A DNA stretch of 20,972 nt, taken from positions 1 to 20,972 of the IMG/VR virus record IMGVR_UViG_3300032296_001332. One strand, written 5' to 3'. A program made the position numbers and the translations under genes. Below, in pieces: positions 2,093 to 19,702 of the stretch. The notes under the pieces are model-generated. The model searched no databases and had not been told where the DNA came from. It was given only the letters and a program-made list of their open reading frames with translations. This DNA is from a virus. Within the stretch, counting starts at the first letter, position 1. Each line of letters opens with the position of its first letter.

Positions 2093-2395
2093 ATGGCAAA
2101 CGTACCCTTCACTTCTCCTTTCACCAAGTCCTTTACGCATACTGACGTGACCGTTGGTACGTCGGCCGGTGAGATTCTAGCCCCTACTACCAACCCTTAC
2201 GATAAGCGTGTGATGCTCGTCATTCAGAACAAGCATAATACCGCTATCGTTGAAGTGATTTTCGCCACTTCCGGGTCCGTGGGCCTCGAACTTCAGCCGA
2301 ACCAGTCTTGCACCCTTGAGAACTACAATGGTGCCGTCCGGGCTGTTTCTGACACCGCCGGTACTACCGTACACATCGCTCAGGCCCTTGTTTGA
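2093..2395 (+). CDS. Small beta-rich virion-associated protein, unknown (100 aa)
   Basis: Not recognised by name. The sequence alternates hydrophobic and polar residues (V-M-L-V-I-Q-N, I-V-E-V-I-F-A, C-T-L-E-N-Y) in the manner of a small beta-sandwich, with no helical segment, signal peptide or membrane segment. It lies between the adaptor and the Tyr/Gly-rich repeat protein. Small proteins of this build in this position are often decoration, stopper or fibre-attachment subunits. The start is the ATG two bases after the previous stop, and its stop overlaps the next start as TGATG, so the next gene is probably translated by re-initiation. Function is inferred only from position and composition. 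Confidence 0.65.
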   Translation: MANVPFTSPFTKSFTHTDVTVGTSAGEILAPTTNPYDKRVMLVIQNKHNTAIVEVIFATSGSVGLELQPNQSCTLENYNGAVRAVSDTAGTTVHIAQALV

Positions 2396-3216
2396 TGCGG
2401 ATTGGCTTGTCCAGTCTAGTTGGAGACGGCTTTGGTACAGGGTCTTTCCAGATTAGTGAGATAGCGGGAGAAATCTCGTTTCCTGCCGCTGGGACTATTC
2501 TTAACACACTTACTGGACAAGAGTATCCTATCGCTGAAGGTGGCGGTAGTTTCTATTTTGCAAACCTTGCCACTAATGTGCCTAATGAAGTTTGTAGCGT
2601 TTATGTAAAGGCAGATGGCATTGGTGGCAGTTATAATGACTGGGCTAATGCCTTTGATGTTTCATTTAAGGCGTATGGTACTTCGTTTTATGGAGATAGC
2701 GGAACTTCGTATGTAAATATAAACGGAACGGATTATCCGAATGGGTCGTATAGTAACGATTTTTACCACGATGGTGCTGGTTATTTTGGACAAAGCGGAA
2801 GTAGTTCATATAGTTCCAACGGGGACTTTATCACATCTGATTCACTTTCTGGAAGTAATTCCATCTCCACTCCAGTAGGTTCGTTTGCTTACGAAAGTTG
2901 GACAGGATACTCCTATTACCACGATGGGTCTGGCGGTTACTACTCCAATATGAATGGTTACTCTCAGGCATCTGACGGAACATTCATTGGAACAGACTCT
3001 GCTGGAGGAACGAGCCAGACTGAAGTTCCAAGCGGCAGTAGCAATTACTTCACTTACAGCAGTTGGACTTCCATTGACTACTACTTCCAACTCAGCGGAA
3101 ACACTTATACTTCCTACTACCAAGGCCTAATGTCTGCCAATTACGGAGACTACATCACCAATGATGGCACTTATAACTACTACTGGGATGGAACTGGTGG
3201 TTACTACTACTACTAA
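2395..3216 (+). CDS. Tyr/Gly/Ser-rich repeat protein, candidate surface or receptor-contact protein (273 aa)
   Basis: I do not know this family. The ATG at 2395 overlaps the preceding stop (TGATG); a TTG three bases earlier is possible but less likely. Residues 1-80 are an ordinary mixed domain. From about residue 80 to the C-terminus the protein is low complexity, dominated by Y, G, S, N, D and T, and from residue 121 it is built of 51-55-residue repeats each opening with an aromatic knot of form x-x-Y-Y-[HW]-D-G-x-G-G-Y-Y. The protein ends inside the fourth knot, in Y-Y-Y-Y. There is no membrane segment. Base composition is unlike the neighbours (24 of 60 bases G or C at 2641-2700) and third positions are often A or T, suggesting recent acquisition or diversifying exchange. 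A surface, carbohydrate-binding role is plausible from the tyrosine knots but unproven. Confidence 0.7.
   Translation: MRIGLSSLVGDGFGTGSFQISEIAGEISFPAAGTILNTLTGQEYPIAEGGGSFYFANLATNVPNEVCSVYVKADGIGGSYNDWANAFDVSFKAYGTSFYGDSGTSYVNINGTDYPNGSYSNDFYHDGAGYFGQSGSSSYSSNGDFITSDSLSGSNSISTPVGSFAYESWTGYSYYHDGSGGYYSNMNGYSQASDGTFIGTDSAGGTSQTEVPSGSSNYFTYSSWTSIDYYFQLSGNTYTSYYQGLMSANYGDYITNDGTYNYYWDGTGGYYYY
2755..3213 (+). repeat. Four tandem coding repeats, period 51-55 residues
   Basis: Repeat units begin at residues 121 (N-D-F-Y-H-D-G), 172 (Y-S-Y-Y-H-D-G), 227 (I-D-Y-Y-F-Q-L) and 259 (T-Y-N-Y-Y-W-D-G). Units 1 and 2 share an internal [SD]-x-G-[DT]-F-I-x-x-D-S block and both end with an x-S-W-T segment. 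Units 3 and 4 are shortened. The copies have diverged at the DNA level, so this is an old protein repeat rather than a fresh DNA duplication. Confidence 0.7.
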
Positions 3217-3221
3217 ACTTT

Positions 3222-3404
3222 ATGGCTACTGAAATCACTATCCCCAAAGGCTGGACTGCCTTCGTCAAGACAGACAAGGCTCTTGGCTACAAGGAGTTCG
3301 TTGGTGGCGGCAAGTACTTCGGTACTCTGACCCTCATCACCAAGCCCACCGAAGCCGAACTCAAGGCCGAACTCACCCGGCTCAAAATCTCTCTCCCTGC
3401 CTAA
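3222..3404 (+). CDS. Small hypothetical protein (60 aa)
   Basis: Not recognised. The protein is a short acidic/basic mixture with a beta-rich start (I-T-I-P-K-G-W-T-A-F-V-K-T), a glycine turn and a helical end (E-A-E-L-K-A-E-L-T-R-L). It starts 5 bases after the Tyr/Gly-rich gene and stops one base before the next small gene, so it is co-expressed with the virion genes. GC content and codon use return to the GC-rich pattern of the genome here, which supports it as a real gene distinct from the AT-rich gene before it. No Shine-Dalgarno sequence is evident. Confidence 0.6.
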   Translation: MATEITIPKGWTAFVKTDKALGYKEFVGGGKYFGTLTLITKPTEAELKAELTRLKISLPA

Positions 3405-3405
3405 C

Positions 3406-3531
3406 ATGATTATCGCTATCGCTACTTCTCTCATTCTTGGCTTTGCTGGCGGCTTCTACGTCGGCCTCAAGAACGCAAACTCCGGCAAGGTCGCCAAGGC
3501 CAAGTCGATTTTTGACGAGATTACCAAGTAA
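3406..3531 (+). CDS. Tiny single-pass membrane protein (41 aa)
   Basis: A 41-codon gene with an N-terminal hydrophobic helix (I-I-A-I-A-T-S-L-I-L-G-F-A-G-G-F-Y-V-G-L) followed by a basic amphipathic tail. It begins one base after the previous stop and its TAA overlaps the ATG of the nozzle gene (TAATG), which supports it as a genuine, translationally coupled gene despite its length. The topology predicts a single inner-membrane span with a short cytoplasmic tail, or a signal-anchor. Its role is unknown; small membrane proteins in tail operons can assist membrane penetration or lysis, but nothing here decides between these. Confidence 0.65.
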   Translation: MIIAIATSLILGFAGGFYVGLKNANSGKVAKAKSIFDEITK

Positions 3532-5126
3532 TGCCCCCTTCCCCGCTATTTGCGGGCGATAAGGCGTTCATCGGACTGAACTCCCGAGACAACCCTATCG
3601 CCATTCCGGCTGGGTTTGTCTCCCGGTCAGAGAACATGCGTATTGACCGTGGCATGCTCACGGTACGCAAGGGCCTTGAACGCCTTACTGACGGCGGCCT
3701 GATTAACCAGACCGTCTATGGTAGCGGCGTTTACATCAATGGCTCCGGTCAGGAAACCATTGTGGTATGCCTGACCTCTAGCCTTTATACCTTTAACCCG
3801 GATACTAACGTACTGGTAGGTCCTATCAACTACCCGGCTGGCCAGACCATTACGGACCCAGATGTAGTTACGGTCTTTCAGGCCATGGACAAGGTCTACA
3901 TTACCCGTGGCTTTGCCCTTAGACCCTTTGAGTTCAACTATACCGCAGGAAGCATTATCGCCCTACCTACGGTTGGTCATCAGTTTCCTAACTCGGTCAA
4001 TGGCATCTACTATGCCAATCGTATCATTGTTCAGGACTCTATCGACTCGGTGGCGGTCAGTCATTACCTAGACGCCACGTCGTTCAATCAGACTGACATC
4101 TTCAGGATTAACGATGGCGGAAACGACCGCCTTGTTGGCGTCTGCCCATGGACCCTCAACGAGTTTGTGGTCATGATGCGTAATAGCATCTTCTACGTCT
4201 CGGTAGGCTCCGGAAACTACGACGTGGGAGACAACATCGCCGCCGATGCCTATGTTAAGTCCTTGGCGACGGACGTAGGGTGTGCGGCCAAGCGTAGCGT
4301 CGTTCAGGCTGGCGGTAGCATCTTGTTCCTGTCGGATAACGGCGTCTATGCCTTGAACCCTCAAGCGGCCGGGGGCGGCAACTCAAACACCCCGGAAGGC
4401 ATGCGTCTTCTCACTATTGGGGAGCCGCTATCGGCCCCCATTGATGACGTCATCCAGCGTATCAACCGTACCTACGCTCATAGGGCCTGTGGCATCTATT
4501 GGAACAACAGGTACTATCTTGCCGTTCCGCTAGACTCGAACACCAAGAACGGACACATCCTTGTTTACAACTTCATCAACAAGGCTTGGGAGTCCGTAGA
4601 TTCGTTCCCGGAAGGTTTTGACATCCAGAACTTTGTCGTAGCCAAGAAGGGCTCTCAGCGACGACTCTTTGCTTTAGATGACACCAACGGTCTTTTCTTA
4701 ATGGAAGAACTGGATGCGGATGAGTTTGGTCCGGCTACCGGGACCCCAATTCTGCCATTCTACATCCCCGAGACTCTTAGTGCGGCTAGTTTCCGTGAAA
4801 ACTTAATCCCAAGTGTCTGTGAAACAAGGACTTACATCTTTGACATTATGGAGTCAAAGCGGTACGCCAGCCTTGAGTACGACCTAGTAATCCCTTCCGG
4901 GGCCGCAATCCGTGCATCAGCCGTAACGGTGAACCCGGACAAGGTAAGGGTTCTGGATGAGTATGGAGCCAACGCTGACGGGCAAGACGCCACTAGGCGT
5001 GTACCTATTCGCATGACTGCATACGGTATCCGGATTCGGTTTCAGAACCTAAGCAAACGACCCACTATTCGTGGGGTTCTGGTTGACGCTATCGTCCCCG
5101 GAAGGAATACTAAGAGTTCAGACTAA
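3531..5126 (+). CDS. Tail nozzle protein (tail tubular protein B-like, beta-propeller)
   Basis: A 531-aa, almost all-beta structural protein. The N-terminal signature G-L-N-S-R-D-N-P followed by I-P-A-G-F-V-S-R-S-E-N-M-R-I-D-R-G and V-R-K-G-L-E-R-L is characteristic of a widespread phage family taken to form the distal tail tube (nozzle). The pattern says 'all objects except those in the default list', with repeated blades around V-V-C-L-T-S-S-L-Y-T-F-N, K-V-Y-I-T-R-G, F-V-V-M-M-R-N-S-I-F-Y-V, S-I-L-F-L-S-D-N-G-V-Y-A-L and Y-Y-L-A-V-P, as in beta-propellers. It follows the adaptor block and precedes the tail fibre, as expected for a podovirus tail. It starts by TAATG overlap. No truncation is visible. 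The family role is established for T7 gp12; equating this protein with it is inference from order and blade pattern. Confidence 0.75.
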   Translation: MPPSPLFAGDKAFIGLNSRDNPIAIPAGFVSRSENMRIDRGMLTVRKGLERLTDGGLINQTVYGSGVYINGSGQETIVVCLTSSLYTFNPDTNVLVGPINYPAGQTITDPDVVTVFQAMDKVYITRGFALRPFEFNYTAGSIIALPTVGHQFPNSVNGIYYANRIIVQDSIDSVAVSHYLDATSFNQTDIFRINDGGNDRLVGVCPWTLNEFVVMMRNSIFYVSVGSGNYDVGDNIAADAYVKSLATDVGCAAKRSVVQAGGSILFLSDNGVYALNPQAAGGGNSNTPEGMRLLTIGEPLSAPIDDVIQRINRTYAHRACGIYWNNRYYLAVPLDSNTKNGHILVYNFINKAWESVDSFPEGFDIQNFVVAKKGSQRRLFALDDTNGLFLMEELDADEFGPATGTPILPFYIPETLSAASFRENLIPSVCETRTYIFDIMESKRYASLEYDLVIPSGAAIRASAVTVNPDKVRVLDEYGANADGQDATRRVPIRMTAYGIRIRFQNLSKRPTIRGVLVDAIVPGRNTKSSD

Positions 5127-5127
5127 C

Positions 5128-6264
5128 ATGCCTCAACTTAACAAAGGAGACACTTTTGCGGACGGCCAACAGGTAACTGGGACCCGGCTTAATAACCTTA
5201 TCGACGGGGCAACCCTTCTTGTAGGTGCGATTGCCGACCAGACTGGCATCACGGCTAACACTCTTGAATCAACCGACACCTTGCTGGTCAATGACGCTGG
5301 CGTCCTCAAGAAAGCGACGGTCGGAGATGTCCTCAACAGCAACCTTGATGCGAATCTAGATGTTGTAACAGCAGTAACCCTGAAGTCTGGTCAAATCGAA
5401 GGCGTCCTTGAGTCGGACGTAAACCTTGTCCCGCAAGACGGAACTACCATTTCTGGCAAAACCTTTACTTCAATTGACGGCATTACGGCAATCGTGACCT
5501 CTACGGCCCACGGTCTTGTGACCAACATGCTTTTGACGTTTACCGCCTCAAACGCTGTCTACAATGGCACCTACCTGATTACGGTCCTTAGCGTCGACAC
5601 TTTCTCCTACGTCATCAGTCAAACAACCCCGGTGGCGGCTAGTGGCACGTTGTCCTATGTAAAGAAGGGCTCTGTCAACGTCGATGGCAACGTCTACGTC
5701 AGCGAAGAACTTAATGTCGTAGGCCAAACCAACCTTGATAACGTTACTGCAAGCGGCAACCTAACTTCAAGCGGTGTCGCTAACTTCACAGGTACGTTTC
5801 AAGTTGGCGGTACTGTTGGGTATGCTCTTACTGAAATTGTAGAGCAAAATATGTCCTATACTGGCTCTCCCTCAGGAGGCTCTTGGACGGCTTGTTTTAC
5901 ATCTGCTTCGTATACTAAACCCGTTGGCGAAATCTGGGTGCTTGAAGTTGACTTCCGCTTTAGAACAGAAGCACAACATTACACAGTATTTAGATTTCAA
6001 CAAACAACTCCTTCTGTGACACTAAATGGAGTATACAACATTGAGGGTGCTGGGTCCAATTATTATCATTGTGAAAATGCTATGCTCCGTTATGTTTTCC
6101 AAGACGCTACGACATTCACAAGCACTTTTACGCTAGACGCATATCCGACCTCTACGCACACAATTACCATAGGCGAAGCGGCTTTCCCGTATACTCCTCC
6201 TTATTTTACAGGAGTAACATTGCCTGTTTCTAAGTTCCGCATCTACAAGTACAAGACCGCCTGA
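5128..6264 (+). CDS. Tail fibre protein with exchangeable-looking AT-rich tip (378 aa)
   Basis: The N-terminus (L-N-K-G-D-T-F-A-D-G-Q-Q-V-T and R-L-N-N-L-I-D-G-A) is the usual virion-anchoring opening of small phage tail fibres. A longer reading frame runs upstream to 5071, but the ATG at 5128, one base after the nozzle stop, gives the correct family N-terminus. Residues about 186-226 form short repeats of the type G-N-V-Y-V-S-E-E-L-N-V and A-S-G-N-L-T-S-S-G-V-A-N-F-T-G, typical of trimeric beta-helical fibre shafts. From about residue 226 (base 5803) the protein becomes a globular aromatic-rich domain and the DNA becomes AT-richer (21 of 60 G or C at 5941-6000), consistent with a swapped receptor-binding tip. 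The stop overlaps the next start (TGATG). No chaperone or peptidase motif is seen at the C-terminus. Confidence 0.75.
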   Translation: MPQLNKGDTFADGQQVTGTRLNNLIDGATLLVGAIADQTGITANTLESTDTLLVNDAGVLKKATVGDVLNSNLDANLDVVTAVTLKSGQIEGVLESDVNLVPQDGTTISGKTFTSIDGITAIVTSTAHGLVTNMLLTFTASNAVYNGTYLITVLSVDTFSYVISQTTPVAASGTLSYVKKGSVNVDGNVYVSEELNVVGQTNLDNVTASGNLTSSGVANFTGTFQVGGTVGYALTEIVEQNMSYTGSPSGGSWTACFTSASYTKPVGEIWVLEVDFRFRTEAQHYTVFRFQQTTPSVTLNGVYNIEGAGSNYYHCENAMLRYVFQDATTFTSTFTLDAYPTSTHTITIGEAAFPYTPPYFTGVTLPVSKFRIYKYKTA

Positions 6265-6698
6265 TGCTTCTGACCAAACTGGTCACGTTCATCCGTCAGA
6301 CTCACGAACACAAGGAAGGCACGGCCTTCCCGTGGGCCGACGATTCGCTAGGGCATTATCTGGCTTGGGCCATGAGCAAAGACTACCTATTCGTTGCTCA
6401 GGACGTAGGCGAGCCTACCGGCGTTTCGGTAGTCTACCCGATTCCCAAGCCATACGACGGCAAGTTCAGCCAAGTCCTACCCTTTGATAGTGAGGTGCCG
6501 AAGTCGGAAGAAGCATCCATGGACCTAATCATCATGGACAGCATCTTCAAGAATGACGCCGCACGGCAGACCCTGACGACTCAGTTCATGGAACGATACC
6601 CTAATTGGAAAGAGCAACGTAAGTTTGCCACTAGAAAAGGGGTTGTATCGTTGCTTGAGAACCGTTACTTTGAACTTACAAAAGGACTGAAAACATGA
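6264..6698 (+). CDS. T7 gp13-position protein, possible acyltransferase-like fold (144 aa)
   Basis: This gene sits between the tail fibre and the gp14-like ejection protein, where T7-type phages encode the small internal virion protein gp13. Residues about 31-60 (H-Y-L-A-W-A-M then Y-L-F-V-A-Q-D then G-V-S-V-V-Y-P-I) have the helix-strand-strand rhythm of GNAT or HlyC-type acyltransferases. The later I-I-M-D-S-I-F and R-Y-P-N-W parts are also compatible with that, but no acetyl-CoA P-loop of the usual form is visible, so an enzyme activity is not supported. It starts and ends by overlap (TGATG, ATGA). The alternative is a purely structural assembly factor for the ejection proteins. Confidence 0.5.
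   Translation: MLLTKLVTFIRQTHEHKEGTAFPWADDSLGHYLAWAMSKDYLFVAQDVGEPTGVSVVYPIPKPYDGKFSQVLPFDSEVPKSEEASMDLIIMDSIFKNDAARQTLTTQFMERYPNWKEQRKFATRKGVVSLLENRYFELTKGLKT
6681..6686 (+). promoter_or_regulatory. Clear Shine-Dalgarno sequence for the gp14-like gene
   Basis: AAAGGA lies 8 bases before the ATG at 6695. It is the best-matched and best-spaced Shine-Dalgarno sequence in the window and confirms this start; most other starts have none. Confidence 0.6.
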
Positions 6699-10099: not shown

Positions 10100-13000
10100 A
10101 TGGCCGACCTAATCAAGCGTAAGGTCATGGCACCTGTTCAGGGAGCCATGTTCGGGAACTCGGCTGAGATGAACGAGGAACAGCAGTTCCTTGCCAATCT
10201 TGCTCCGGAAGAACGAGAGATGGCCGAGTTGGAACTTGCGGGACCTATCACCGGAGATGAGTTGGCTCAACTCATGGCCGAGGACTCAAAGTACATGCCG
10301 ACGAAGGATGAGTACGACGTCTACAAACAATGGATGAAGACCCGTGAGGTCGACGTCATTGACGCCTTTACCAATGGTTTTGGTCAGGTCCTTAGCGACC
10401 TTGGCACCGCAATTGATGCCGGATGGGAAGCCGACGATAAACTTGCCAAGGCCCTGCCTACCCTCTTTGAAGGCTTTGCCCGTGGTACCCGTGACTTCTA
10501 CGGCATGCTGGCCCAGTCTCAGGACCCAAACAGCGTCCTGTTCAAGTTCAAGAACGTGCTGGCCGGTGACGGCTCCGACCCAGAAGCCGAATACCAGCAG
10601 TTCCTAGCGGCCCGTCAGTTTAACGCCGTGACCATGGACATCATGGAAAACAAGACCACCGGGTCCAAGGAGTTCTTCGGCGTCGAAATCGACAAGGACT
10701 TGCTTATCCCCGAGGTGGCTCAAGCCGTTTCCTACATCGCTGACCCTACCCTTTTCATTCCTTCCGGTGCCTTTGGTGCCGTCGCCAAGGCCGGTGCCAA
10801 GGCTATCGGTGCTGGACACTTCGCCGAGAAAATCATCGCCGCCGCCGGAAAGGCTCAGGCTTTCAAGGATTTGGCCCTTGCTGGCACCCTGCGTATTGCC
10901 GGTATGCCCCTTGAACTCGTAGGTCGTGCTACCAGCAGTACCATTGACGGGGCTGTTGCCCGTGGCTCTGCCTTGTTTGGTGACGTTATCGGCATGAGTC
11001 CGGAAACCTTTAACGCCACCCTTCGTGGGGCTGGCCTTACGACTACTGCCCTTCAGGTCCCCGGATGGTCTACCGTCTCTGACGCTTACTTTGCCGCCAA
11101 CGTAATCGGTGGCATCGGCGAAACTCTTGGTGCCGTTGGCCGTCAGGTCGGCGGACAACAGCGAGGCATCCTTTCTTACGCCAAGCGAGCCTTGCTTGCC
11201 GAAGGTGATAAACTCACCCCTCAAGCCAAGCGGATGCTCCAAATCATCGACACCGCTGACCCGCTGTTTGGCTATGCCTATGCGGCTGGTGAAGGTGCCC
11301 TTGAAGGTGCGGCTATTGGTGGTTTCTTGGGTAGCCTTGCTGGTGGCCTTGAAGGTGCCGCCGCCGGTGCTGGTTCCGGTTCCGCACTTGGTGCTATTGG
11401 TGGAGCCGTAGGTCGTGGCGTCACGGACATTCACAAGGAACGTACCCGCATCCAAGCGGACATGGTCATCGAAGGACTCAAAGATACTGACACGGTCCAA
11501 TACGATGCCATGAACACCCTTCGTGCCTTGGGCCGCAAGCACGACAAGTCCTACGACCACATCATTGTCGGCCTTGACACCGTAGCCCCCGGAGCCCGTC
11601 TGCACATGCACGATGGGGCTTCTTTCGAGGCTTACCTTCAGAAGAACAAGTTAGTCGACACCTTTGACCCTGACCGTCCGGGCCGTGTGCTTCGTGGAGA
11701 AGACCCTGCCAACCCGCTGATGTACCATCGCTGGGAAGGTTTCGTGATTCAGAAGGATAAGGCTGGTCAGACCGAAATCTTCATCAATACGGATTGGGCC
11801 CTAGAGAACGCCATGGGACACGAACTGTTCCACGGCATCATGCGTTCTTCCGTCTACGCCAAGAACTTTACCGACGCCGTCACTAACAGCATCATCGGTA
11901 CCCGTGGCCCGAAAGGAGAACTCATCCGAGCCGGTGAAGTTCCTCCGGCTGAAGCCTACGAGATGTTCAAGCGGTACATTGACATCGAGTACAAGGACCC
12001 TGTGGCCAAGAAAGCCAAGATGGACCAGTTGGACGTCGCCATCAAGGAGTGGGAAACCAACGGCAAACTCATCTCTGAGTCCGGACTAGAAGGTCGTGCC
12101 ATCCTCGAAGACCTTTCTGAGGAGTTTGGTGCCTACTACTTCAACCATTGGCTCGACGACAAGTCTCCCGACTACCTGTTCTTCGGCGGCAAACTGCCCG
12201 GCATCCGTGGCTTGTTTGACGACATGAAGATGGGCTGGCTGTCGTTCACCGAGGCCCGACTCAAGAAGTCGATGCCCGGATTCAACTTCTCGGAAACGGT
12301 CATTGACCCCCGCACCGGCTTGCCTCGTCAGGCTCACATTGACGAAGCCTTCCGTCGTCCTAGCGGACGCACTCGTTTCTCCGCCCTTGACTACCTGATG
12401 CGTGATTTGGTCCGTGCCGCATCCGGGGTAAACACCAACGACAACATCATCCTGCGTAACATGACTCCGGAGCAACGTGCCCGGTTCATGGATGCTCATG
12501 GCCTCGACGGACTGTTCCGTCGTGACGCTACCGGCGGAGCCCGTGAAACGTCCGAGGCTCAGATGCGTCGGGAGAACCAGACCCGGGTCAAAGGCATCAT
12601 CGACACAGTCAATACCATCCCTGCTAACGAGCGTGGTACCCAGACCATCGTCGATGTAAACGGAGACACCGCCATCATCGGTACCCTTTCGGACCGTGAA
12701 CTTGAGGTCATCGTCAAGAACGGCCACATGAGTCAGGCACTTGCCGACAAGTACAAGACCATCCGTGAGGTGTCCGGCAACAAGGGCAAGGGTGCCAACG
12801 TCCTTCAGTCTAACTACTGGGGAGAATCCATCGAGACTGGTTCCGGCGTCAACGCTCCCCGTGTGGTCAATACCGGCGGCACTCGCTCGGTTCCGATGAC
12901 CCGCCGTGTGTTCGTCCCGCACTCGCTTGAGACGGTCATTACCCTCAAGAAGAACGGAGATGCCAACTTCGGCGTCCTTGCCCACTCCCTAGACTACGAC

Positions 13001-16000
13001 AACCTTGGTCGCCGCAGTCAGGCCGTGTACGGCATGCCCGAAGCCCGGGCCCTGTACAACAACGACTACAACTCGTTCCAAGCGGACTTCTACCGCTACC
13101 TCCAGAATCTCAGCGACCCGAACGCCATCCCTTCTGCCGACCTGTTCGGCGGCGGCGACATTGGTGCCAAGAAGCGTAACTTCTTCCACGAAATCGTTGG
13201 CTCCGCCCTTCGTCAGGGTGAAACCTACATCAATCCTCCCCGTGCTGGCTACGCCGGTCCTGCCGGTCGTGGCGAGTTCTTCGTCTACCAGACTCTGCGT
13301 ATCGACCGCATGAGCCATGTGGCCGTCCGTCCTGACATCGTCCCTTACGACCATTCTCAGGTCTACGACCGCACCCGCCGTAACTACAAGCCGAGCGAAC
13401 TTGCCGTCGAAGAAGTGCAGGGCGGCCTAATCTACAAGCACCCGCAGGGATACAACATCATCAAGCGTGGTTCGATGGCCCGTGCTTACGACCTTGATGG
13501 CAAGGAAATCGGCACCTTCTCTGATGCCGAGTCGGCGTCCCGGGCAATAACCCGTGACTTGAAGCGTCGTGATAACGAGGGCTATGTGGCCACAGTCAGA
13601 AAGACCAAGGCAGAACAGCGTATGTTCAAGCCGGTCGAGTCGAACGAAGCCATGGAAGCCCGACAGAAAGGCGATGTGTTCATGACCGACGCCATGCGTA
13701 CCTTTGCCGGTACTCACGGAATCATCCGCCAAACCGCAGACGAATCCTACTCCGACTACTCCAAGAGCATCTCCGAAGGCGTCGTCACCAAGGCTCAGGC
13801 AGAACGCATCCTGATGATGGCCGAGGGTGCCTTCAAAGGTGAGTTGCGTATTCAGCAACTTCAACAGCGACTCGACCTGCTTGAAAGTCAGGGCTCGAAC
13901 GGAGCCCGTCTTGGCAAGTACAGCCAGCCTATCGAGGCCATCATCAACAAGCACTTCAATCCTACGAACGACGCTTTCGTTGCCGGTCGTCCGATGGCAA
14001 ACCTTGGTGGTACTGACGCACTCCTGAAGGCCGCAAAGGAGGCACAGTCTCTGGACGAAGTCCTCACCGGATTCGTCTTTGAGTTGGCAGGAAAGAAAAA
14101 GGGCGGAACTGGAATGGACATGCGTAGGGCCCGTGAGATTACCGCCGAACTGGCTCCTCATGCCAACGAACTGTTCAATCAGGTAAAGATGTTCGGAGAG
14201 CGTGAGGCTATCCGTAACGAACTAAAGCGTCCTCAGGTCGGACACCCTGACTACTACTACGGCAGGGACCGTGCCAATCTTCAGGAAGACGCCCGTCGTG
14301 TTTCTCAGGTCCGTGAATACATCGACACGCTTGACCCTAACAAGAACGTCGAAGGTCTTGGCCAGTACCTTGTCGACAATCTTCCGCTTCGACGCATCTA
14401 CCAGAACGAAGTCTATCTCCAGCAGTTCGACACCGGTGTTCCTTTCGTCGCTACCGTTGTCCATGGCACTCCGAACGTAGACCTAGTCAAGTCCCGTGAG
14501 TTTGACCCGTCCCGTGGCGGAGAAACTACCGGTGCCATTTCCGCCGCTAAGGCCGTGTTCTTCGCCGCCTCTGACGAGACTGCGATGGCTCCTCTCTATC
14601 AGATTGGAAAGCAGACCAACCCTCAGTTCAATCCGGACGGCACGGTGGCCGAAATGAACATGCTCAAGGTCGCCATCAAATCGGACAATCCGTTCGTTGC
14701 CGACCTGTCCATGATTCCTCCGGACAAGAAGGTCGGCTACCTAGGCATCCGTGGCGTCGTCGAAGAAGCGTTTGCCAAGGGCCATGACGTAGCCGTCATT
14801 CACAACGTCCGGGACGGCGGCGACTTCGACACCGTGTTCGCCATCCGAAATGACAGGGTCAAGGACCTTCATCGTGTCCTTGAGACTACGCTGGACAAGG
14901 CCGCCGGTCAGACTCCCCTCCCCCGTGGCGACGGAGTCACCGTGGGTACCAAGAATCTCAAGCCTTCCGAGGGTGACGCTACCCCTGACTGGCAGACCAA
15001 GAGGGCTCAGGATGCCCGTGAGAACCAGCCCCGTAAACTGTGGGTCTATCCTGACACTCCCCAGTTCCGTAAGTGGGCCGGTGGTCTTACGTTCCTCAAG
15101 AGCGTAGGTCAGCAGATGCGTCCGGCCGACCTTGAGCGTGGATTTGTTTCTACGGTATTTAAGGGCGTCATCTCCAAGCGTGACTTTGACGAGTTCGGAG
15201 AACGTCAATCGAGGTACAGCATTAAGCCGGGCAAGCGTACTGACCAGTACGGCATGGACCTTACCGGTCGAAAGGACCCCAACTATTTCATCTCTGACGA
15301 AAACACGGGGCGGAACTTCTCGGATACCGGAGACAGTCCTGACATGTACTATCTTCGTAGCGAGAATCCTGCTGTTCTTACCAAACTCAAGGACGTCGCT
15401 AAACGTAACCCTCAACTTGATTCCGTCCTACGCAAGTTCTGGGAGTCGAGCATCAAGGATGAGTTCGCCGATGAGCCTGAGTATGGCAAGGGAACCCGCT
15501 ATGAAGGCATGGTTGAGTACGACTATGACGCTTTCCTGAAAATGGTCGAGGAAGGCCGCTTCCTCATGGACGGCCCAGAGGGGTACGACAAGAAGGGCGT
15601 TGCCTTCAAGGGTGACTTGGAAGAAGTCATGGCGACTTGGGGTGAGTCGTGGAACAAGATGAACCGCTACCTCCTTGAGAACGGCTATGACTCCGTTGTC
15701 GTTCCAGACAGGACCGTGAACGAAGACGTGCCTACCATCGTCGCCGACCAGATGACGACAAACGTCAAGGCTTCCAGCAACTACGGCGAGTTCTCCCGGG
15801 AAGACGCCAGATACAACTTTAAGCCCGCTGAAGGTGATGAGGTTCCACTCAAGGCAGGAAAGTACGAACCGACGGAACGTGACCTCCGCATGTTCGCTCT
15901 GAACATCAAGAAGTTCGGATACACGACTAGCCCGTCTGAGGCTGGATACATCCTTCCTGACGGCAAGATGTTGGACTTCTCCGGTCGTCATCAAATGTCC

Positions 16001-19000
16001 GACTATGTCAGGGTTGGAGATGTCTTCATCCCCAAGAGGATGAAGGACATTGGGCGTATGGAGCAGGGTACTGAAAGCGATTATGCCGCTGGCTATCGCA
16101 CCCTAGACCACCGTGAAGCATTGGTTCTCCCTGACGAACGGACGACGAAGGAAGACCTGTACTCCAACAAGAAGGCTGGCAAGGAACGTAAGTTAAACCA
16201 GCATGAACACATCATCCGCATGCAAGAAGCCGGTGCGATTCGCATGCACTTCGACAATGCGATGATTTCGTTCGACATGCTTCGTGAGCCTTCACCGGCA
16301 CAGTATCGACAGATTCTTGAAATCCTAGAAAACAGGAGTCCTTACGACGGAGACAAACAGCCCCTTACTATCGACTTTGGTGAACAGTACTCGTTCCTCA
16401 ACAGAGGCAACCAAGGCTACGCTAAGGCCAAGTACCTCTCATACGACCACGGATTCAGCCCGAAGCGTGTGATTGGAGACATCAAGCGTATCTTCAAGGG
16501 TGAAGACATTTCCGGAAAGAGGATGAAGCCTGTCGAAGGTGACACCGTTCCGTTCCCGGAATCTAGTGGCAAGAAGTACGACACCGACTCTGACCTATTC
16601 AAGGCTGGGTTCTTGGGTCGCTACGCCAAGGAGAACCCGGGCCTTACGGAGAACATCAGTATCGAGGTAAATTACAGGGTTAGCGACGGCTCCTACAACA
16701 AGGCAGGAACTCCCGAGGACATTTATGTGTACTTGAAGGACCCCGACGGAAAGATTTTTGCCGACATAAACCTTGAGTTTGGCAAGGGTCAGCGTTTTGG
16801 GAACTTCGCAAACCTTCGTTATGTAAATGTAGCACCGGAGTACAGAGGCCGTGGCTACGGCAAGTTGATGTATTCCGAGGTAGGCGAGCGTATCCGTTCT
16901 CTGGGCGTCCAGAACCTTCTTGGTTCCGTCATTAACTCCGAGAACATTCCTTATCACATCCGTGAGGAAATCTTCGGCAAAGGCTCCACTAGACAGCCAA
17001 TGGGCAAAGGTGGAAGCACTATTACTGAACTTCGTCCTGACGCCTACTACAAACCTGTCGAAGGCGAAGGCCAGCCGCCACGCCCCCTCAAGGAGTACCT
17101 TGCCGAACGAGGTGCAGACTTCAACCCCGAGGAACTCGTTGGTGCCATCGTCAGATACCGCAAGGACGCCGACGATGAGCCTGACAACTTCTGGCGTATC
17201 ATGGATTACGGCAAGGGGAAGAACGGCCACTTCCTGAAGTACCTGAAGGAAGAAGACTACAAGGAAATCATGGCATCCGGAGCAACCGGCACGTTGTTGC
17301 AGATGAAACTCAGGGATGCCATGCACCAGTTCGGCGGAACCAAGTACGATAACTACAAGGAAGTCTCCGACCTCACCAAGTGGTTCGGACGAATCTACGA
17401 CCAGATTCAGTTCCCGGCCGGAGAGCAGAAGGTCGAGATGCCTAAGCCAAAGGCAATCGACACGGGCACCTTCCGTGGAATCCTTGAGGATGTTGAGTCC
17501 GGTATCGACTCCGTGCAGTTCACCAAGGACCACACGACCCAGTTGTACGGCAACAAGTCTGGCACAAAGAAGGGTGTCATGAAGGAAGCCGCCGCCGCCT
17601 TGGAAGCCTACGACAAGGCTACGACTCCGGAAGCCAAGGACGCCGCCATCTCTGACCTTATGGACTCCATCGAGTCGTTAAGGGAAATCCTGAACGAACT
17701 TGAAGATGTGCAGTCCAACTCGGAAGCCTTCGAGAACACCGAAGGATACCAGCGTCGTGAGGAACAGATTGAGGCCCTGACCGAGGCGGTCGACGCCTTG
17801 GACGACGCCATCAAGCCGGACGACACGGGCGGCGATTCCCCTCAGGTCAACATGAAGCCGGTTGAAGGCGACCTTCCTGCTGACGAAGTAAATGCGGCAA
17901 GGGCTCGTACTCCGGTTAGGAACTTCGTCCCTATTCCCTACAAGGAGAAGCCTGACCCTACAAAGCACACGTTCCAGCAGTACATCGACTGGTCTGACCG
18001 TACTAAAGGTCACATCATCATCAAGGATGCCCTAGACTTCATCAAGGCCGGTCCTCCCGGATTCATGGCTTCGACGGCCGAGATGCTGAGAGTCATGCTT
18101 GAAGGCACGGATTCAATCTACCGTGACGGAGGTAGCATGAAGCGTGTCTCCCTTCTCGACAGAGCAATCAAGACCACAAGCGGACGTGCCCATGGTGGAC
18201 CGGAAGACACGCTCATTCCATCCGCCACAAACACCGCCATAGTCGAAACTATGTCCGCTGACCTTGAAACGCTTATTGCTCGTTACAAGGCAAACGGCAA
18301 AGGTCAGTCAGGAATCACGGGCAACGGATTCGAGGGAGTCTTCTTTGAGGAAATCATGCACACCTTCCATGGTGAAGCATTGAGGGCGATGGGTAACAGG
18401 AACACCGGAGGTCCTCCGGAAGGAATTGAGTCACTCACAGGCCAGAGGATGATTCAACACTTGTTCATTCGTGGACAGGGAACTAGCGGTGCCGCTTGGT
18501 TCACGATGGCAAACAACTTCATCACGGACGTCGGCATGCGTATCCAGCAGTACCAGCGTAAATTGTCTTCCGGCACTTTTACTCAGAAGGAGTTTGACGC
18601 AAAGATTGACGGCATGCGTACCGAGATTGCCGCCGCCCGCCTCGTTAAAGTTTATGAACATGCCATCAAGAACCTAGACATCGCCGTAAGGACTACCACT
18701 TACGACAAGAAGGGTGGGAAGACTTCTACCATCAAGGTTGTTAAGGCTTATGATGTCATCAAGAGGGCCATCAATAGGCATAAGCCTGACCTTCATTCAC
18801 TTGATGAGTATGATGATTCTGGGGTAGATAAGAAGACCGGCGAGAGATACGAAATCAAGCATGCCTTTGTTCGCAGAAGCGAAATTGACTTACTTAAAAC
18901 TGATGATGACCGCTTCCAATACGGTGCCAACAAAGGTGCATACCGTATCTGGAATCCGATGGAGTTCATGATTCAGGCTTTTGCCGACCCTTATGATGCT

Positions 19001-19702
19001 TCGCTTCTTCGTGAACTTCGTGCGGTAGACATGGGTTTCTTGGACGTCTACGAACGTGGCAAGAGTTCGTTCCCGAAAAATCCCAACGACCCTATGGGCG
19101 GCACGGTTCGTCCCAGTACGGAAAGAGGTCTTACCCGCTGGTTCAAGAATCTTGGCGGCCTGATGGCTCAGTTCTTTGATGCCGTAACTCGTTTCTATGG
19201 CATAAGCAACAGGGCTAAGACGCTTCTTGAGCAGAACATTGAGGAATCTTTGCGTCTGATTGCGGGACACAGAACTACGGACATTAAGCCTTACAGTCCA
19301 ACGCCTACGCCTACGCCTACGCCCACGCCTACGCCTACGCCTACGCCCACGCCTACGCCTACGCCCACGCCTACGCCTACGCCGACACCTACGCCTACGC
19401 CGACACCTACGCCGACACCTACGCCGACACCTACGCCGACCCCGACGCCTACGCCGACACCTACGCCGACCCCGACGCCTAGTCCGCTTCCGGCTCCGGT
19501 GAAGCAACCGGCTATCATCTGGAGGTCGTGGACCAATAGTACGACCGAAAACGGCTCCATGTGGCGTAATGCCGTGGGTTACAGCATCGTGTACTTGGCT
19601 GGCCGCAAGTTCCGTCTCTACAATCCGCAGAACGCCCTCGTCGGAATCTACAACGACATTGAGGAAGCCAAGCGGCGTGTCAGACGAGACGAACCCAAAT
19701 GA
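10100..19702 (+). CDS. Giant multidomain 'polyvalent' ejection protein (3200 aa)
   Basis: One uninterrupted frame occupies the T7 gp16 position, two and a half times gp16's size. Domains in order: helical N-terminus (1-390); glycine zipper (392-441); zincin with HELFH at 574-578 and E674/E675; unassigned part (about 790-1090); beta-alpha module (1117-1156); helical segment then ADP-ribosyltransferase-like domain (H1455, F1488); second such domain with K at the His position (1688); unknown domain with A-G-Y-I-L-P-D-G (1948-1955); GNAT (R2249-G2254); helical/coiled-coil part (2325-2583); zincin-like domain with EEIMH (2750-2754) and E2955; 30 Thr-Pro pairs (3068-3127); second copy of the module (3160-3200). 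Six K-P-x-E-G-D-type motifs mark boundaries from residue 1175 on. No lytic transglycosylase is visible. I infer ejection with the DNA, like T7 gp16 or the N4 virion polymerase, carrying host-modifying enzymes. Confidence 0.75.
11273..11422 (+). other. Glycine-zipper membrane segment of the giant protein (residues 392-441)
   Basis: Fifty residues consist almost only of G, A, S, L, I and V, with a small residue every third or fourth position (for example [11 protein letters not shown] and L-G-A-I-G-G-A-V-G). This pattern inserts into and packs within membranes and is common in phage ejection proteins. A weaker hydrophobic stretch lies earlier at residues about 210-245. It supports a role in the host envelope. 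Confidence 0.65.
11447..12379 (+). other. Zincin metallopeptidase domain of the giant protein (about residues 450-760)
   Basis: The sequence G-H-E-L-F-H-G at residues 573-579 is a textbook HExxH zinc site (H574, E575 catalytic, H578). A helical segment about 95 residues later, [10 protein letters not shown], supplies the likely third ligand (E674 or E675), as in phage polyvalent metallopeptidases. The domain follows the membrane segment, so after ejection it would sit at or inside the host envelope. It could cut host proteins, or the giant protein itself. Confidence 0.7.
13448..13567 (+). repeat. Beta-alpha module, copy 1 (residues 1117-1156)
   Basis: About 38 residues beginning G-Y-N-I-I, continuing [18 protein letters not shown], form two or three strands and one helix. 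The same plan recurs at the C-terminus of the protein (3160-3200). Shared positions include G-Y-x-I, R-x-Y, a central G, D-x-E-x-A and a final R-x-x-R-D-type end. Confidence 0.6.
14417..14899 (+). other. ADP-ribosyltransferase-like domain 1 of the giant protein (about residues 1440-1600)
   Basis: The pattern V-V-H-G-T (H1455), then G-E-T-T-G-A-I-S-A, then [11 protein letters not shown] (F1488 where the family has Y or F), then G-H-D-V-A-V-I-H-N and [12 protein letters not shown] matches the architecture of ART domains found in phage polyvalent proteins (H-Y-[EQ] class). The last catalytic position, usually Q or E just before I/V-K, appears to be R1586, so activity is uncertain. If active it would transfer ADP-ribose from NAD to host targets, as the ejected Alt enzyme of T4 does. 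Confidence 0.6.
15047..15799 (+). other. Degenerate ADP-ribosyltransferase-like domain 2 (about residues 1650-1900)
   Basis: The outline follows the same family: P-Q-F-R-K-W-A-G-G opening, V-F-K-G-V at 1686-1690 where Y-H-G-T is expected (K1688 instead of His), [24 protein letters not shown] (1862 onward), and [11 protein letters not shown] (ending 1899). Loss of the NAD-binding histidine suggests a non-catalytic copy. The fold assignment is by pattern only. Confidence 0.45.
16562..17035 (+). other. GNAT acetyltransferase domain of the giant protein (about residues 2155-2312)
   Basis: Strand V-N-V-A-P-E-Y is followed by the acetyl-CoA pyrophosphate loop R-G-R-G-Y-G-K (R2249 to K2255; the consensus is R/Q-x-x-G-x-G/A) and the helix [11 protein letters not shown], then L-G-V and S-V-I-N-S-E-N. 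This is GNAT motif A and the start of motif B in the right order and spacing. The preceding 80 residues form the expected antiparallel strands. The substrate cannot be read from sequence. It lies between two K-P-V-E-G-D-type motifs, so it is a discrete module. Confidence 0.8.
18032..19249 (+). other. Second zincin-like domain with altered zinc motif (about residues 2645-3050)
   Basis: The segment [11 protein letters not shown] lines up with the usual L-L-H-E-I-x-H-A-x zinc helix of phage polyvalent metallopeptidases, except that the first His is Glu (E2750-E-I-M-H2754). About 200 residues later [13 protein letters not shown] (E2955) matches the conserved third-ligand helix and the D-P end, followed by T-R-W-F-K-N-L and a final hydrophobic helix as in that family. 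One zinc ligand is therefore missing and the domain is probably inactive or repurposed; H2757 three residues on could conceivably substitute. Confidence 0.5.
19301..19480 (+). repeat. 30 tandem hexamers encoding (Thr-Pro)30
   Basis: Exactly 180 bases form 30 in-frame hexamers of five kinds (ACGCCT, ACGCCC, ACGCCG, ACACCT, ACCCCG). Units 1-4 and 5-8 are identical 24-mers; units 14-23 are mainly alternating ACGCCG/ACACCT; units 23-25 and 28-30 repeat the same 18-mer. The encoded extended linker (residues 3068-3127) separates the second zincin-like domain from the C-terminal module. The layering of higher-order units indicates repeated slippage or unequal exchange. Confidence 0.9.
19577..19699 (+). 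repeat. Beta-alpha module, copy 2, C-terminus of the giant protein (residues 3160-3200)
   Basis: Begins G-Y-S-I-V, continues [23 protein letters not shown]. It matches copy 1 at 1117-1156 with a one-to-two-residue gap. Displayed at the end of a long Thr-Pro stalk, it looks like a tether or binding tip. Confidence 0.6.

Follow-up and report, generated by a model that had tools for sequence, protein, structure and literature searches.

The window analysed here, a 20,972-base stretch of DNA, is part of the genome of an uncultured tailed phage whose capsid protein is of the SU10 type, and it raises the question of what a gene for a tyrosine-, glycine- and serine-rich repeat protein does in the middle of the structural operon. 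The gene, referred to as REP (positions 2395..3216, plus strand), codes for 273 amino acids and had been proposed in a first-pass annotation to be either a surface adhesin for glycans or an exchangeable host-range cassette. We propose, with a probability of roughly 0.7, that REP supplies a virion appendage with its adhesive, exchangeable part, the appendage being composed of a base (the product of the preceding gene, s100), a plug and a swappable body.

Genomic context and base composition

The operon starts with the gene of the major capsid protein (22-951), which matches PF17236 in Pfam with an E-value of 3.4e-41 and assigns the window to the SU10_MCP backbone. It is followed by a gene for a 121-aa protein and by TT256 (1320-2090; 256 aa), which is adaptor-like by position only, no adaptor homology having been detected. 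Next comes s100 (2093..2395, plus strand; 100 aa), the stop codon of which shares one nucleotide with the ATG of REP (TGATG), an arrangement conserved at 28 of 30 distinct loci of relatives. Downstream of REP lie s60 (3222..3404, plus strand; 60 aa), a 41-aa ORF (3406-3531), a nozzle-like protein (3531-5126) that weakly matches PHROGs of tail and head closure proteins, Hc3 among the latter, and the variable gene f378 (5128-6264). The structural operon is closed by a giant protein of 3200 aa (10100-19702) with a long threonine-proline dipeptide tract close to its C-terminus and a weak match to GNAT acetyltransferases (E 8e-4, under the curated cut-off).

The sharp break in base composition described in the first-pass annotation was confirmed, the GC content of REP being 0.44 compared with 0.53-0.61 in the series of genes that begins with the capsid gene and ends with the nozzle-like one, and its GC3 being 0.40 where codon usage in the remaining genes would predict 0.67. 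Immediately 3' of REP, s60 has a GC content of 0.55 again. The break is not confined to REP, as the 5128-6264 gene contains a second AT-rich swapped region in its C-terminal part (GC3 0.40). REP genes are AT-rich also in relatives with GC-rich backbones, and therefore AT-richness alone does not mark a single recent import. AT-richness fits frequently transferred appendage genes generally. No homologue combining uniform GC content with a known unrelated function, the case named beforehand as speaking against the idea, was found.

Repeat structure and predicted fold of REP

Self-alignment of REP yielded a score of 177, compared with 72.1 ± 11.7 (maximum 110) for 60 composition-preserving shuffles, and the open reading frame described earlier is hence a real repeat gene. 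The motif centres of the hairpins are at residues 74, 126, 177, ~232 (degenerate, read by eye) and 265, with spacings of about 52, 51, 56 and 32 residues, which corresponds to a degenerate period of about 52 aa. The motif Y-Y-[HW]-D-G-x-G-G-Y-Y, with which all units had been said to open, occurs in its exact form only twice, namely in unit 3 (YYHDGSGGYY, residues 174-183, 2914..2943) and in the C-terminal cap hairpin (YYWDGTGGYY, residues 262-271, 3178..3207). Unit 1 (VKADGIGGSY region, residues 70-80, 2602..2634) and unit 2 (FYHDGAGYFG, residues 123-132, 2761..2790) are degenerate copies, as is unit 4 (YYFQLSGNTY, residues 229-238, 3079..3108), which is recognised from the sequence and from the model strands 218-232 and 237-246; all units are on the plus strand. 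Across 46 distinct family members, successive DGxG motifs are most often 48-59 residues apart, the last step, ahead of the C-terminal cap, being shorter (28-35 residues), and the hairpin consensus is approximately Y-Y-x-[WH]-[DN]-G-S-G-G-Y-Y.

An AlphaFold2 model of the REP monomer, calculated with 20 family sequences as input, was all-beta with a mean pLDDT of 86.9. Residues 1-22 were below 50, and values of about 82-97 were obtained from residue 31 onward. The label 'tyrosine knot' given to the protein at first has no basis in this confident model. Comparison of the model with PDB folds revealed none passing E 0.03; the best hits were beta-propellers and are meaningless because their TM-score is about 0.1. 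No trimerisation motif was detectable in REP, and the foldon is absent. From the model and from the comparisons with s100 and L002 described below, we distinguish an anchor (residues 1-28, 2395..2478, plus strand) from a body of beta-hairpin repeats (2479..3213, plus strand), the modules of which are common to proteins with differing anchors.

A new repeat family

The REP family comprises 46 distinct sequences of up to 428 aa, a few of which are incomplete at contig ends. No Pfam family was found in REP at E-values up to 1, nor at 0.1 in any of 20 members, and no REP relatives were found in PHROGs, among PDB sequences or in 50,697 phage records. A tblastn search for relatives of REP, s100, TT256 and f378 in isolated phages, to which the BLAST low-complexity filter applies, returned none. 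A predicted-structure search revealed three uncultured-phage proteins matching REP with a probability of 1.0, one of which, known by name and length, has 790 aa and is named collagen triple helix repeat protein. The earlier remark that no phage family with this repeat was known is thus borne out, no named family including REP, and we conclude that the repeat family is new and absent from current libraries.

Choline- and glucan-binding repeats and MORN repeats are aromatic- and glycine-containing beta-hairpin repeats resembling those of REP. Their period, however, is about 20 residues in contrast to about 52 in REP, and membership was rejected since none of the Pfam repeat models matched. A DGR-diversified target, which would be rich in tyrosine, asparagine and serine, was likewise rejected, as none of 19 related records (28-88 kb, some of them fragments) contained the reverse transcriptase PF00078. 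Because of its divergence, alignment A1 did not lend itself to pattern scans, for which a subset of it and a DNA pattern served instead. Against a cellular origin, the exact motif was matched twice in bacterial and archaeal genomes totalling 257 billion bases, compared with 29 times in a far smaller viral set. The only two exact matches in bacterial genome contigs (L118, L119) are both in Clostridia MAGs.

Outside the present operon, REP was found on an unrelated 42.8-kb phage contig (G003) with a different capsid protein and terminase phrog_38. On this contig, the gene for a REP of 402 aa lies between a 772-aa tail-fibre gene (phrog_8443, 4.7e-9), the end of which it overlaps, and the terminase gene. 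This adjacency implies that the REP domain moves together with fibre genes, independently of the operon described here.

Exchange of slot occupants

The interval from s100 to the nozzle-like gene, designated the slot, was read out in 80 loci that share a related capsid gene. It contains REP alleles, a 'MAISI' type, foldon-bearing fibres, shorter proteins or nothing. The 'MAISI' type occurs in L007, L009 and L011, the capsid proteins of which are 90-96% identical to that of the window. Foldon-bearing fibres occupy the slot in L026, L027, L050, L051, L054, L060 and others; of the three tested for PF07921 (L027, L050, L060), L027 and L050 scored above the curated cut-off (E 1.6e-11 and 4e-7). These occupants match fibritin and tail-fibre PHROGs and are AT-rich like REP. 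In L071, the slot is empty (L071:9712-9827, 115 bp), which implies that the appendage gene is dispensable in at least some lineages.

Comparison with close relatives, as suggested in the first-pass annotation, revealed alleles and unrelated genes to be swapped between near-identical backbones. DNA homology of the window to L004, L005, L007, L008 and L009 breaks at 2163-2546 and at 3141-3406, with the flanks being 73-90% identical. It resumes at 3141-3169, just before the cap hairpin, in the REP-bearing L004, L005 and L008, and at 3405-3406 where s60 is missing too. Backbones with 90-100% capsid identity carry an unrelated gene or REP alleles that are 27-57% identical, the latter being the case in L004, L005 and L008 despite identities of 95-100% for the capsid and 92-93% for the nozzle-like protein. 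Conversely, the closest REP alleles (61-75%) sit in phages with capsids of 56-68% identity: in L002, L094, L110 and L117, REP is 61-75% and s60 85-97% identical, whereas the capsid, adaptor-like and nozzle-like proteins reach only 51-68%. The DNA of L002 is 84% identical to the window over 2465-3412 and at most 69% identical in the flanks. The history of REP is therefore discordant with that of the virion backbone, a mark of exchangeable receptor-binding or adhesin modules. Of the earlier proposal of an exchangeable host-range cassette, the cassette is upheld by the homology breaks at the gene borders and by relatives with different alleles or unrelated genes; the host-range part is hypothetical.

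Only three long near-identical segments were detected between otherwise dissimilar REPs. All of them lie in the first module or in the C-terminal part, which argues for the 3' joint and the joint of anchor and body as the main places of exchange; for the same reason, whole-unit shuffling among the repeats was rejected. Two differing REP genes are present in tandem in one phage (L028:10243-11764), the first with a standard VD-type anchor. An 88287-base contig (L024, L107, L108) carries two capsid genes (83% and 58% identical to that of the window) and two REP genes, and probably represents two phages joined in assembly.

A second exchange site was observed in f378, where close relatives retain the N-terminus but differ in the C-terminal two thirds, homology being lost from 5205-5736 to 6234-6288. 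This gene is probably the tail fibre proper and, as a point against the role proposed for REP, may itself be the true host-range determinant.

Covariation of the anchor with s100

About five classes of REP anchors can be distinguished. The window and L002 are homologous from position 2465 on, which is codon 24 of REP, and the first 30 residues of the L002 protein belong to another class. Among 35 distinct REP phages, the rank correlation of pairwise identities between s100 and the anchor (~28 residues) was 0.65, a value reached in 0 of 1000 permutations. In the same phages, correlation was 0.13 between s100 and the next 75 REP residues, 0.09 between s100 and the adjacent TT256, and 0.03 between the anchor and the following REP module, though the latter two are parts of one polypeptide. 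At TT256 identities of 0.8 or more, s100 identity was 0.83 within an anchor class compared with 0.48 between classes; L067 and L065, for instance, are about 100% identical in TT256 and 48% in s100. The first body module is 72-77% identical among L102, L105 and L111, yet the L102 anchor is only 26-29% and its s100 47% identical to those of L105 and L111. Anchor classes are thus common to different bodies and tied to s100, in keeping with the conserved N-terminal anchor and variable distal body of exchangeable adhesin modules, and the anchor would be the part in contact with the virion.

Tight linkage could contribute to this covariation. Nevertheless, so sharp a drop at one joint would not be expected from linkage alone and may reflect selection on the joint. 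While a swappable appendage gene as such is of a known kind, the covariation of plug and base is new.

Properties of s100 and s60

AlphaFold2 predicted s100 to be a compact beta protein (pLDDT 90.8). Its PDB neighbours are jelly-roll-like, including Bacillus endospore appendage proteins (4e-4), nucleoplasmins, the KHP40 cement protein (3.7e-3) and an HFTV1 turret chain (8qpg chain TD; Foldseek E 4.4e-3, TM 0.47/0.43), the last standing among many other jelly rolls. The fold is a very common one, with nucleoplasmins, cupins and plant virus coats scoring alike.

The s60 gene was present in 26 of 30 distinct REP-positive loci and in 0 of 19 REP-negative loci (Fisher P 5e-10). We conclude from this co-occurrence that s60 belongs to REP, as a putative assembly partner.

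Proposed function and its alternatives

We infer that s100, encoded in the same operon and translationally coupled to REP, would form a small jelly-roll-like base on the virion, into which the first ~28 residues of REP would insert as a flexible plug matched to s100. The body would project outward as a string of beta-hairpin repeats and bind the host surface, with s60 as a REP-specific partner, perhaps a chaperone or a cap. A phage would change its adhesin by recombining where plug and body join and also close to s60 or the conserved 3' end; alternatively, plug, base and body may be replaced together. A role of REP as an adhesin is the best inference because foldon fibres occupy the same slot and because a tail-fibre gene is its neighbour in the unrelated G003. 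Of the surface adhesin for glycans proposed before, the adhesin is accordingly likely and the binding of glycans hypothetical. More tentatively, at somewhat under even odds, s100 and the first ~28 residues of whichever appendage follows it may constitute a matched pair, with REP, as a new class of beta-hairpin repeat adhesin, and unrelated fibres, foldon fibres among them, being interchangeable at one virion site and the repeat representing a fold class without a solved representative.

Where on the virion the appendage would sit can be read in two ways. It may quite possibly dock on the adaptor or nozzle as a side fibre or a distal adhesin, with its function unchanged, as do the long tail fibres of SU10, the genes of which (gp12, gp13) come after the adaptor gene gp11 and before gp16 and gp17 (PMC9509320). 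The slot between the adaptor-like TT256 and a protein with weak Hc3 and tail PHROG matches conforms to this arrangement, as does the position of the G003 REP after a tail-fibre gene; TT256, however, shows no adaptor homology, and the s100 fold resembles decoration, cement and turret proteins. That resemblance, specifically to the KHP40 cement protein and the HFTV1 turret chain, lends itself to the slightly less probable reading that s100 sits on the capsid with REP projecting as a turret or head fibre, comparable to the HFTV1 turrets, which consist of two separate proteins, gp30 as the base and gp31 as the head (PMC12494034). The jelly-roll matches are unspecific, though, and the operon position is equally compatible with a tail location.

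It is unlikely that REP serves for non-specific adhesion to glycans or mucus, retaining the phage near hosts without setting host range. Aromatic and glycine-rich surfaces are frequent in carbohydrate binders, the slot is empty in L071, and f378, with its conserved N-terminus and swapped C-terminus, would then be the receptor-binding protein; the strong allele turnover and the two-level modular exchange, on the other hand, resemble selection for specificity. AT-richness and foreign-looking codon use would suit a gene with no relation to the virion, cargo or moron, that sits by chance in a recombination hot spot. We consider this very improbable in view of the foldon fibres in the same slot, the covariation with and translational coupling to s100, the fibre neighbourhood in G003 and the lack of any enzyme family match.

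Comparison with known systems

In the Alteromonas phages A5 and V22, tail fibre and chaperone are exchangeable host-recognition modules (PMC10579305). As there, a gene for receptor binding, putative in the case of REP, appears to be transferred horizontally between distant phages along with its small cognate partner; the proteins differ, however, and here exchange splits the plug from the body while the base follows the plug, the chaperone role of s60 being putative. With the HFTV1 turret (gp30 and gp31; PMC12494034, PDB 8QPG), s100 and REP would share the two-protein design of a small base with a variable outer part; the fold similarity of s100 to the turret chain is weak and one among many to jelly rolls. 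The outer parts are unrelated in sequence, that of HFTV1 being deacetylase-like. By analogy, we think that s100 and REP work like gp30 and gp31; homology is not claimed. With the Kuravirus SU10, the window shares the PF17236 capsid family and a fibre locus between adaptor and nozzle genes, gp12/gp13 lying between gp11 and the nozzle gene gp17, with gp16 coding for the short fibre (PMC9509320). REP has no sequence in common with gp12/gp13, and no counterpart of s100 or s60 is known from SU10. Fibritin-type foldon fibres (PF07921) share with REP the genomic slot in relatives, REP itself being devoid of a foldon.

That phages exchange host-recognition genes is not new, but in the present case sequence alone suffices to dissect the exchange, with the plug following the base and the body moving freely. 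The plug/body border offers a testable joint for adhesin swapping, and s100, an unannotated gene of 100 aa, is a likely predictor of the appendage that a phage can carry. This provides a route to annotating the adhesion machinery in an uncultured phage group without close isolates.
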